The position numbers and the translations under genes are program-made. Positions 21,105-40,934 of a stretch of 53,628 bases of DNA are shown piece by piece (the stretch's first letter is position 1; each line of letters begins with the position of its first letter). The stretch comes from Halanaerobium kushneri. Lineage in GTDB: Bacteria; Bacillota; Halanaerobiia; Halanaerobiales; Halanaerobiaceae. Where the stretch lies: positions 1 through 53,628 of the forward strand of contig NZ_FTNC01000018.1 of assembly GCF_900156285.1 (NCBI RefSeq), read 5' to 3'. The notes below the pieces were generated by a model. It searched no databases, was not told the DNA's origin, and saw nothing but the letters and a program-made list of their open reading frames with translations.

Positions 21105-22904
21105 TTAGCCATAGAGAGGTCCAAAATTCTTACAGGCTCTATAATCAGCACTTTCTAAATCCTTGGTGCCAAAAAGGTTCCAGGCATCCGGTCTAAAGAT
21201 TCTTTCTTCTCCGACATTATGCATATTGACTGGTATCCTGAGCATTGACGCCAGGGTAATTAACTGATCTCCTATATGTCCATAACTAATTGCTCCATGA
21301 TTTGAGCCCCAGTTGTTCATTACTGAATAAACATCTTTAAAAGCTCCTTCTCCTGTCAGATTTGGCACAAACCAGGTTGTCGGCCAGGTTGGATCTGTTC
21401 TCTGATTTAATACTTCATGGATTTCAGGATCTATATCAACTGTATAACCTTCTGCTATCTGTAAAACCGGCCCTAAACCTTTAACTGTATTCATTCTGGC
21501 CATTGTTACAGGCATTCCACCTTCAGATAGAAATTGAGAAGAATAGCCTCCCCCTCTAAAATAACCTAAGTTTGCAGGGCGCCACTCTGTAGCCTCAAGG
21601 CAGGTATCTACTTCTTCTTCACTGATATTCCAAAATTCTTTCATTACTGGATTTCCGTCCTCATCTTTCATCTTACCGGTTCCATCAAGAGTTGTTGAGC
21701 CTGAGTTGATTAAGTGGATTATTCCATTTTCAGCTCTACCAGTTAGTTTTTTTCCTGTTACTCTTTCAATAGCCTCTGGACTCCAGAAGGTTCTTACATC
21801 TGAAAAAATCTGAGCTCTATTTGTTAGAAGATGGTTAAAAAGCATCGGCACTGCATTTAAGCTGTCATTTTCAGTGGCCATTATATAAGCTTCTCTAATT
21901 CCATTCCAGTCAAAAGATGAATTAAGAATTGCCTCCATAAAGTCTCCATTAGGAAAATAATCTGTCCACTGCCGCTGTCCCTGGAATCCTGCTGCGATTG
22001 CATTATGACCCATAGCTTCCTCTCCATAACCAATTTCTTTTAATTTAGGATTACCAACCATTAAGTCTCGAGCTATCAGAGTCATTTTAACTACAAATTC
22101 CCACTGCTCATCTTTTTCATCTCTACTGAACTGCTCTTCCTCAGGATTATTATCCTTACCTTCGGTGCAGTTTTCGTTGACCCATTCCATGGCTTTTTCA
22201 AACTCTTCTTGATCATATATTTCTTCTTCTATCCTACGAGTAAACTCACTCATATCTATATATTCATTTCTCATACCTAAGTAATCCTGAAAAACCTCTT
22301 CATCTACAATGGAGCCTGCTATACCCATTGAAACTCCACCCATCGATAGATAAGACTTGCCTTTCATTGTTGCAACTGCCAGGCCAGCTTTGACAAATTT
22401 AAGTATTTTCTCTTTAACATCTTCTGGAATACTCTCATCTCCAGCGTCCTGTACATCCTCACCATAAATTTTAAAGACAGGCAGGCCCTTTTGATTATGT
22501 CCTGCTGCCGCTGCTGCCAGGTAAACAGCCCCCGGTCTTTCGGAGCCATTAAAACCCCAGATAGCTTTTGGTCTGAGAGGATTCTGATCGATGGTTTCAG
22601 TTCCATAGCACCAGGAAGGGGTTACACTTAAGGAGACACCAACACCTTCACGCTGAAACTTTTCTTCAGCTGCTGCTGCTTCTGCCACTCCACCAATAGT
22701 ACTGTCAGCAATCACACATTCAACCGGCATTCCATTAGGATGTCTTAAATTTTTCTCTAAAAACTCAGCTACTCTTTCAGCCAGCCCCATCGTCTGGTCT
22801 TCTAAGGATTCCCTGACTCCTCTTTCTCTTCCATCAATGATTGGTCTAATTCCTATTTTAGGCATTGAACCTATTAGTCTTTTTTTACCTTTAAAATCAC
22901 TCAT
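21105..22904 (-). CDS. fucI: L-fucose isomerase
   Basis: Converts L-fucose to L-fuculose; relatives also convert D-arabinose to D-ribulose, using manganese. The 599-residue length is normal. Recognisable blocks are [20 protein letters not shown], the substrate region [16 protein letters not shown], the metal-site regions [11 protein letters not shown] and [18 protein letters not shown], and the C-terminal [18 protein letters not shown] with the catalytic His. The start is ATG 22904, five bases after GGGAGGC. It is the last gene of the LacI-ABC-fucU-fucI operon. A second 5' fragment of a fucI gene lies at 40034-40135. Confidence 0.94.
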
Positions 22905-22998
22905 TTTTTGCCTCCCTCTCATTTTTTGCAATTAATTATTAGCTTTACTCAAAAAGTTAAAAAATTATGGGCTTCATTATTTATATTAAACTTTAATT

Positions 22999-38010: not shown

Positions 38011-38760
38011 CTAATTTTCAACTATTGAATAGATCTTACCATAATTACCTCTAAATTTAGATTCAAAATAATCAAATAACACACCATCCTGGGCAATAGA
38101 AACGGTATTAATCACCTGCAGTGGATCTCCTTTTTGTTGATGCAGAAGCTCAGCTTCAATTTTGTCTGCCAGGCCTGGATAAAAAACCACTTCAGAACGC
38201 TGTAATTTATAACCACAGTTTTCAGCAATTACTCTGTATAATGATTTATCTTTTAAATCAATTTCCATTAACTTCGGGCATAATTTATAGGGAATGTGGT
38301 TTGTAATTATTACAATCGGTTCTTGATCGATTTTTCTTAATCTTTTAATTTTAATTACTTCTTCATGTAATTTAAGCTGTAATTTCTCACTTAACTTTTT
38401 ACTTGCCTTAATTAAATTTTTTTCTAAAATATCAGTCTGGGGGTCATAACCTCGTTGAATTAACTTATCATAATAAGTTACAATATCCTGCATTGAACCA
38501 TAATTAAACTTCTTATTGGCAACAAAAGTACCTTTACCTTTCTCTTTTCTTAAAGCACCATCGCTGACAAGTTCGCTGATTGCCTGCCTGACTGTAGGCC
38601 TACTGACTTCAAAGATACTGCACAACTCCATCTCAGACGGTATGGATTCGCCAACTTTAAAAATCCCTTCGTCAAGTGCCTCCTGAATACTTTCTTTTAT
38701 CTGATAATAAAGAGGTACCGGACTATCTTTATTAATCTCTGACCAAAGATGCTCACTCAT
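38011..38760 (-). CDS. GntR-family regulator with UTRA domain
   Basis: Transcription factor of 249 residues of the HutC subgroup. The winged helix lies at about residues 12-78 (ESIPSEMELCSIFEVSRPTV, then RQAISELVSDGALRKEKGKG). The UTRA effector domain (about 100-240) includes IKRLRKIDQEPIVII and FYPGLADKIEAELL. Such domains usually bind a sugar phosphate or an amino acid derivative. It lies between hxlAB and the ABC operon, on the same strand, and probably controls one or both. Its own promoter carries repeated TTACTAA heptamers. Confidence 0.88.
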   Translation of the reverse strand: MSEHLWSEINKDSPVPLYYQIKESIQEALDEGIFKVGESIPSEMELCSIFEVSRPTVRQAISELVSDGALRKEKGKGTFVANKKFNYGSMQDIVTYYDKLIQRGYDPQTDILEKNLIKASKKLSEKLQLKLHEEVIKIKRLRKIDQEPIVIITNHIPYKLCPKLMEIDLKDKSLYRVIAENCGYKLQRSEVVFYPGLADKIEAELLHQQKGDPLQVINTVSIAQDGVLFDYFESKFRGNYGKIYSIVEN

Positions 38761-38855: not shown

Positions 38856-39401
38856 TCATTCAAGATTTGCATGTCTTTGATATAATTTGTCATTTTTAAT
38901 TTCTCTTTGTTCTACAATACTGATAATTAAATTATCGCCCAAAATAAGTAGAGCCTCTTCAAAATAGCTGCCTCCTGGAAGTGATTTTTCCTTTTCAGAG
39001 ATTACTCTATTGACTGGAATTTCAACAATCTGGTCTGATATTTTAGCAAGAGTTGAATTTTTACTGGCAGTAATCAAGGCTATTTTTCCACCGATATTTT
39101 TAGCATTTTCCGCAAATAAAATTGTACTTTTTGTCTCACCCGACCCACTTGCAACTATTAGTAAATCATTTTCTCTAAAAGCAGGAGTATTAGTTTCTCC
39201 AACCAGATAAATCTCAAAACCATACTGCATAAAACGCATAGCAACTGCCTTAAGCATAAGTTTTGACCTGCCTGCAGCAGCAAAAAATAATCTTTCTGAT
39301 TTGTAAATTAAATCTTTAAACTCATTTATTTCTTTTTCTTTAAGCTGTGAGAAAATTAATTTAAGATCTTCCAATACCTGCTGACTCTTATTAACTAACA
39401 T
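38856..39401 (-). CDS. hxlB: 6-phospho-3-hexuloisomerase (SIS domain)
   Basis: Second enzyme of the ribulose monophosphate pathway: it interconverts hexulose 6-phosphate and fructose 6-phosphate. The protein has 181 residues, the usual size. SIS-fold motifs are FFAAAGRSKLMLKAVAMRFM, ENDLLIVASGSGETKSTI and IALITASKNSTLAKISD. Its identity is supported by hxlA four bases upstream. In organisms without an oxidative pentose route the pair works in reverse to make ribulose 5-phosphate; in others it fixes formaldehyde. Confidence 0.9.
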   Translation of the reverse strand: MLVNKSQQVLEDLKLIFSQLKEKEINEFKDLIYKSERLFFAAAGRSKLMLKAVAMRFMQYGFEIYLVGETNTPAFRENDLLIVASGSGETKSTILFAENAKNIGGKIALITASKNSTLAKISDQIVEIPVNRVISEKEKSLPGGSYFEEALLILGDNLIISIVEQREIKNDKLYQRHANLE

Positions 39402-39405
39402 CAGC

Positions 39406-40038
39406 TCACCTCACATTATTTAGAATTTTATTCATTTTTCTGGCAATAGATGCAGGATTATTTGAACGATAAATAGCTCCACCAACAATTATTGTATCAG
39501 CAGTACTTCGACAGGCGGCTTCAAAATTATTTAAATTTATCCCACCTGCTACAGCTTTTTTTGTTTTAATATTTTCTATAAGTTCTAATTCTTTGAGTGG
39601 ATCTGTACCATCTCTTTCGCGATCCGTCGCCCGGTGAACACTAATATAATCTGTTTTGAGGTGTTCTACTTCCTGAGCCCTTTTTTTAATATTTTTAATA
39701 GCACACATATCTACCAGCACCTTTGCATTAAAAGTTTGAGCATTTTTTATAGCTGCCTTAATTGTTTCATCATTGGCGGCTGCCAGAACAGAAATCATAT
39801 CAGCTCCTTTTTTAAAGGCAAGCTCAGAAATAATATCTCCACCATCCATTATTTTTAAATCTGCGAAAATAATTTTATCCGGATAAAGCTCCTTTATTAT
39901 CGGTATAATCGAAATTCCTTCTGAAATTAATAAGGGAGTTCCCAATTCAATAATATCAACATATTTTCCAACCTGCTGTAAAAGTTTCAGACTTGATTTT
40001 AATTCGGTTAAGTCAACAGCTAACTGCAGTTTTTTAAT
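39406..40038 (-). CDS. hxlA: 3-hexulose-6-phosphate synthase, probable AUU start
   Basis: Joins formaldehyde to ribulose 5-phosphate, or releases it in reverse. The 210-residue protein of the OMP-decarboxylase superfamily shows KLQLAVDLTELKSSL, DIIELGTPLL, the catalytic block FADLKIMDGGD, KVLVDMCAIK, YISVHRATDRE and AVAGGINL. Homologues start at M(E/K)LQLALDL, which here corresponds to ATT 40038. That codon lies seven bases after AGGAGG and overlaps the stop of an upstream fucI remnant (ATTAA). An in-frame ATG at 40089 would add 17 residues read from the remnant in another frame, with no ribosome binding site. Confidence 0.85.
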   Translation of the reverse strand: MKKLQLAVDLTELKSSLKLLQQVGKYVDIIELGTPLLISEGISIIPIIKELYPDKIIFADLKIMDGGDIISELAFKKGADMISVLAAANDETIKAAIKNAQTFNAKVLVDMCAIKNIKKRAQEVEHLKTDYISVHRATDRERDGTDPLKELELIENIKTKKAVAGGINLNNFEAACRSTADTIIVGGAIYRSNNPASIARKMNKILNNVR

Positions 40039-40135
40039 TGATTCTCCTCCTCTCTCTTTCTTTTCCATAAATGATTGGTCTAATTCCAATTTTGGGTATT
40101 GAACCGATTAGTCTTTTTCCAGCTTTCTTATTCAT
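40034..40135 (-). pseudogene. fucI 5' remnant acting as leader ORF of hxlA
   Basis: An ATG at 40135 with GGGAGG upstream opens a 33-codon frame, beginning MNKKAGKRLIGSIPKIGIRP and ending in TAA at 40036-40034. Residues 7-27 match FucI at [20 protein letters not shown] and RER. The DNA is also similar (for example ATTGGAATTAGACCAATCATT), with mostly silent changes, so it derives from a divergent paralogue rather than a recent copy. It still has a promoter and ribosome binding site and ends exactly on the hxlA start, so it may serve for translational coupling. Confidence 0.85.
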
Positions 40136-40289: not shown

Positions 40290-40934
40290 CTATTCCAAAA
40301 CCTGTTTTAATTCAGTTAAACTATTTAATTTTTTATAGACAAGTTTCTCAATTTCTGCTGCTGGCTCTACTAAATCAGGAATCATAATCACTCTAATTCC
40401 AGCTTTATTTGCTGCCATAACTCCATGAACAGAGTCTTCAATAATCAAAGCTTCTTCAGGACTAACTCCAAGTCCGTTAACTGCCTTAATAAAAATTTCT
40501 GGGTCCGGTTTACTTTTTTCTACTCCATCTCCTCCAATTATATAATCAAATTTATCTCTAATAGCAATAGAATCTAAATAAAATTCAATTTTTTCTTTAA
40601 AACTGGAAGAAGCAACTGCAAGCCGATAATGCTTTTCTTTTAAATAAGCAATAATTTCTATGAGTCCTTCTTTAGCTGGAACTCCATTTTCCCTTACGTA
40701 TTTTTTTAATAATCGATTTTTCTCTTCTCTCATTTCAAGATAGGGAAAATCTTGTCCATGGGCTTCTTTAAATGATTCTCTGGTATCCTCCAGATCCAAA
40801 CCAACCAGCTCATCAAAAAAATCACCTGCAAAATTATATCCTCTTTCTGCTGCCAGTTCCTGCCAGAGTTTCTTAGAAAGTCTTTCAGTATCAAACATCA
40901 AACCATCCATATCAAAAATAACTGCTTTAAACAT
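40290..40934 (-). CDS. HAD-superfamily phosphatase/phosphomutase (beta-PGM-like)
   Basis: Protein of 214 residues of HAD subfamily IA. Motif I is VIFDMDGLMFDTE, with two catalytic aspartates; motif II is RLAVASSS; motif III is KSKPDPEIFIKAV; motif IV is LIIEDSVHGVMAA. A helical cap lies at about residues 15-85. The family dephosphorylates small sugar phosphates or acts as beta-phosphoglucomutase. The substrate cannot be fixed from sequence. It follows the P-type ATPase by 45 bases on the same strand. Confidence 0.87.
   Translation of the reverse strand: MFKAVIFDMDGLMFDTERLSKKLWQELAAERGYNFAGDFFDELVGLDLEDTRESFKEAHGQDFPYLEMREEKNRLLKKYVRENGVPAKEGLIEIIAYLKEKHYRLAVASSSFKEKIEFYLDSIAIRDKFDYIIGGDGVEKSKPDPEIFIKAVNGLGVSPEEALIIEDSVHGVMAANKAGIRVIMIPDLVEPAAEIEKLVYKKLNSLTELKQVLE

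Follow-up and report, generated by a model that had tools for sequence, protein, structure and literature searches.

The region analysed here is a 53,628-nt stretch of Halanaerobium kushneri DNA (GCF_900156285.1, contig NZ_FTNC01000018.1, positions 1 to 53,628, forward strand), which is called the window below. Its minus strand carries hxlA and the adjoining hxlB, preceded by a short open reading frame that begins like fucI (Table 1). The initial annotation had described a promoter, a ribosome binding site and 33 fucI-like codons running straight into hxlA, and all of these elements were present. The remnant matched the beginning of the window's intact fucI (22892-22820) at 64 of 73 nt (88%) and fucI of Halanaerobium saccharolyticum at 61 of 73 nt. 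The FucI N-terminal sequence was present in it and the full frame was absent (33 codons vs 601 in H. saccharolyticum). Judged from these identities, the resemblance of the remnant to fucI is not a matter of chance. The intact fucI, which the initial annotation did not mention, belongs to the cluster in the window and lies 17 kb from the remnant. The assignment of the downstream frame to HxlA was borne out by the curated NCBI model TIGR03128, of which residues 4-205 of the protein cover positions 1-204 of 205, and hxlB was linked to hxlA in both species. As had also been described, ATT and the remnant TAA have one base in common (T40036, in A-T-T-A-A), and the ATT follows a perfect AGGAGG. Upstream of the remnant, a HAD-family phosphatase gene was found at 40290-40934; at that site H. 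saccharolyticum carries an ArsR-like regulator and an arsenite-methyltransferase-like gene, both called by eye.

Table 1. Features of the hxlA region and the intact fucI copy in the window
Feature	Position	Strand	Evidence
Promoter of ancestral fucI, TTGCAA-18 nt-TATAAT	40249-40220	minus	Consensus scan, 10/12
Shine-Dalgarno GGGAGG of fucI remnant, 9 nt before ATG 40135	40150-40145	minus	Sequence
fucI remnant ORF, 33 codons, ATG 40135 to TAA 40036-40034	40034..40135	minus	ORF and identity to fucI
Shine-Dalgarno AGGAGG, 7 nt before ATT, within remnant	40051-40046	minus	Sequence
Proposed AUU start of hxlA, one-base overlap with remnant stop	40038-40036	minus	ATT at homologous H. saccharolyticum codon
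hxlA, 3-hexulose-6-phosphate synthase, 210 codons from ATT	39406..40038	minus	TIGR03128 216 bits, cut-off 200
hxlB, 6-phospho-3-hexuloisomerase, adjoining hxlA	38856-39401	minus	TIGR03127 193.8 bits, cut-off 160
Intact fucI	21105-22931	minus	TIGR01089 1068 bits; 93% aa identity to hxlA-linked fucI of H. saccharolyticum

The motif AGGAGG-N7-ATTAAA occurred once in the window, against 0.07 occurrences expected. Duplex energies with the anti-Shine-Dalgarno sequence, which was taken from general knowledge and not from this genome, were -10.1 kcal/mol for the ATT of the window and -9.1 kcal/mol for that of H. saccharolyticum. The spacing of 7 nt was the commonest among the ATG genes of both loci. 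Furthermore, the start region in the window was less structured than 200 of 200 shuffled sequences (z +1.98). A CTG at 40029 was dropped as a candidate start of hxlA, lying 16 nt from the Shine-Dalgarno sequence. Taken together, duplex energy, spacing and low structure favour a predicted AUU start in the window as well as in the relative.

The comparison locus was that of H. saccharolyticum MA284_T2 (G001; NZ_SNWX01000016.1). Among the 12 Halanaerobium genomes compared, hxlA of this type occurred in two species, that of the window and H. saccharolyticum, and no third Halanaerobium or other member of the order carrying it was found when these genomes and the order were searched. The GTDB genome contigs gave zero matches to the extended HxlA protein, while their scan with the two-species HxlA alignment recovered H. 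saccharolyticum and six distant HxlA. A literature search for hexulose-6-phosphate synthase in Halanaerobium found no papers; a Staphylococcus hominis paper reportedly names hxlA and fucI together.

The gene order in H. saccharolyticum is fucI (601 aa), hxlA, hxlB, regulator, sugar-binding protein and deoC, which matches that of the window, and a P-type ATPase further upstream is common to both species. The complete fucI is directly upstream of hxlA and ends about 100 nt before it. The hxlA frame reads TAA ATT TTT AAA ATT AAG GGG GAG TTA ATT ATT AAA AAA TTA CAA, and no ATG, GTG or TTG was found from the upstream in-frame stop to codon 64. The initial annotation had proposed that close relatives with ATG at 40038 would indicate a sequencing error; in the single close relative, H. 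saccharolyticum, the homologous codon is ATT, and it lies 8 nt downstream of AGGGGG. Over hxlA codons 2-63, dN between the species was 0.14 and synonymous sites were saturated (pS 0.76), indicating that these codons are translated and selected coding sequence, and no stop or frameshift was found in hxlA between the two species. Upstream of the ATT only 15 of 60 positions agreed, which is about the chance level, and similarity begins at the ATT. The sequence ATTAAAAAAYTRCARTTAGC occurred once per genome in both species. hxlA thus appears, on comparative grounds, to start at AUU in two Halanaerobium species. The case for ATT rests on the relative having no alternative start there; it is possible that an Ile codon was kept at this place by chance.

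Amino acid identity between the species was about 64-65% for hxlA and 52% for hxlB, and 78-95% for the rest of the block; hxlA and hxlB (38856-40038 in the window) are far more diverged than the neighbouring block genes. The regulator beside hxlB is of the GntR family in the window (38011-38760) and LacI-type, by eye, in H. saccharolyticum. In H. saccharolyticum, the gap from fucI to hxlA holds a stable 13-bp hairpin (L003:2155-2225; -19.5 kcal/mol, z -3.69). It occurs just once in the H. saccharolyticum genome and not at all in the genome of the window; it has no counterpart at the window locus and was dropped as an explanation of the start.

These observations bear on the history of the locus. 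The initial annotation had suggested that a rearrangement supplied hxlA with a captured start. The start-stop overlap is indeed new, but the AUU is older, as ATT is found in H. saccharolyticum, and hxlA has not moved. Nor was the start foreign: the idea that hxlA moved behind the expressed start of another fucI was dropped because the relative already has fucI directly upstream together with the same promoter, which also argues that fucI was deleted in place. About 126 bases before the remnant aligned with the fucI promoter region of H. saccharolyticum (local score 81, shuffled maximum 42), whereas the region before the intact fucI of the window scored 23 against the remnant promoter. Since the upstream regions differ in this way, the remnant was not taken as a duplicate of the intact copy; it marks the place where fucI originally lay, and it is the intact copy that was displaced or duplicated. 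H. saccharolyticum has the same ATT with fucI intact and a selected N-terminus, so the ATT is older than the deletion and does not stem from an error in sequencing one of the genomes. As read from the two loci, the AUU start predates the rearrangement, and the fucI deletion produced only the start-stop overlap. Depending on where exactly the deletion ends, the AGGAGG could derive either from fucI itself or from the former leader of hxlA.

The initial annotation had also placed the ATT where HxlA homologues begin, and our comparison agreed with this. In 28 of 28 distinct HxlA-like loci from genera other than Halanaerobium, an alignment-based script located an ATG, GTG or TTG no more than a few codons away from the homologous position, and most of these loci have M-K-L-Q where Halanaerobium has ATT-K-K-L-Q. 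Within the syntenic block, hxlA was the sole real orthologous gene for which both species lack a canonical start close to the homologous N-terminus. The remaining rows in which no start is shared are shadow frames antisense to genes. For hxlB, each species has an ATG, the two lying one codon apart. In ten Halanaerobium genomes, infC showed AGGAGG-TGCATAAAT-ATC-GTT with N9 spacing, as read by eye from reading frames and not measured, and no canonical codon was found nearby at the homologous infC N-terminus. The genus therefore probably tolerates AUH starts, as AGGAGG-N9-AUC of infC has no nearby canonical alternative. infC (loci L037-L050) appears to start at AUC in three related genera too.

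The main competing explanation is that the AUU is used in the relative and that hxlA of the window switched after the deletion to ATG 40068 or to 40089, which the initial annotation had given as ATG and which is in fact TTG. Both codons are in frame with hxlA and open, as had been proposed, and gene finders restricted to ATG, GTG and TTG would pick one of them; the product would carry an N-terminal extension translated in a second frame through the remnant. However, no Shine-Dalgarno sequence was found before either codon in the window (-3.3 kcal/mol for ATG 40068 and -2.9 for TTG 40089, vs -10.1 for AUU), and ribosomes that begin at the strong start of the remnant and translate it would cross both codons in a different frame. 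In H. saccharolyticum, neither codon has a counterpart and the extension lacks a homologue. We regard such a switch as unlikely, and AUU, with its stronger duplex and its ATT counterpart in a relative that has no other starts there, is the best candidate start, in agreement with the initial annotation.

It is much less probable that hxlA has decayed in both species or that ATT is a sequencing error for ATG. A relative that has no canonical start is what would be expected of a dead gene or an error, but the same ATT at good Shine-Dalgarno spacing was found in two separately assembled genomes, hxlA is under strong purifying selection with zero stops or frameshifts, and HxlA and HxlB both score above their family cut-offs. 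Ribosomal frameshifting from the remnant into hxlA, yielding a fusion protein, has hardly any likelihood: the remnant stop adjoins a run of six A, but the remnant ends before reaching it, and hxlA of H. saccharolyticum is not entered by any frame from upstream, the fucI frame being closed well before it.

Preferring AUU initiation in both species, we propose that the ancestral operon was fucI-hxlA-hxlB and that hxlA was translated from an AUU preceded by a strong Shine-Dalgarno sequence. The lineage leading to the window would have lost the fucI copy at this site from about codon 27 to just before the hxlA start. The old fucI promoter would now drive the transcript, whose first open reading frame would be the 33-codon remnant ending on the AUU. 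Ribosomes would bind the AGGAGG in the window and start hxlA at AUU, and initiation at this codon most likely takes place in both species. In the window, ribosomes terminating on the overlapping UAA may possibly restart at the AUU. Such coupling would not be needed for AUU use, because in H. saccharolyticum fucI ends well upstream with a hairpin in between. Taken as a whole, this sequence of events (ancestral operon, AUU-started hxlA, deletion of fucI in place and continued use of the AUU) is in our judgement likely to be correct. The two loci would then provide a natural experiment, in which the same AUU start occurs with and without an overlapping upstream open reading frame, and gene finders in Halanaerobium would cut or extend the HxlA protein.

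In Escherichia coli, infC starts at AUU and is autoregulated through IF3. Binns and Masters are said to have described, in 2002, an AUU start of pcnB in the same species. hxlA resembles both in having an AUU start on a chromosomal gene. However, hxlA has a metabolic function and shares an operon with fucI, unlike infC, to which the IF3 autoregulation belongs. To our knowledge, few chromosomal AUU starts have been established, and those named here mostly belong to genes for regulation, RNA processing or translation. If an AUU is conserved on a metabolic gene, that gene would allow the purpose of AUU starts to be tested cleanly.

In Staphylococcus aureus, the non-canonical starts of cvfC1 (AUU) and ccpN (AUA) are conserved in related species and have strong Shine-Dalgarno sequences, and these starts were mapped by ribosome profiling and measured by reporters, in which non-canonical starts reached about 10% of the output of AUG in RPMI medium (PMC13009471). 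hxlA likewise has a conserved non-canonical start with a strong Shine-Dalgarno sequence, though the starts of cvfC1 and ccpN were established experimentally whereas that of hxlA is predicted from comparative sequence. In Streptomyces, the GTC start of sigR is repressed by IF3, as established by mutation (PMC5472188). The sigR start is also a rare one that is conserved in its genus and suspected to limit output, but it is GTC where hxlA has ATT, and it is for sigR that IF3 control was demonstrated. Given the reduced output in S. aureus and the repression by IF3 in Streptomyces, it is plausible that, owing to the AUU, HxlA output is low and sensitive to IF3. We consider it possible, though rather improbable, that the AUU is held by selection, with formaldehyde fixation set by IF3 and initiation capacity and with coupling from the remnant leader frame tuning the same AUU; if this were true, the fucI deletion added start-stop coupling to that AUU. 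Conserved non-canonical starts are an already known class, to which hxlA would add a case.
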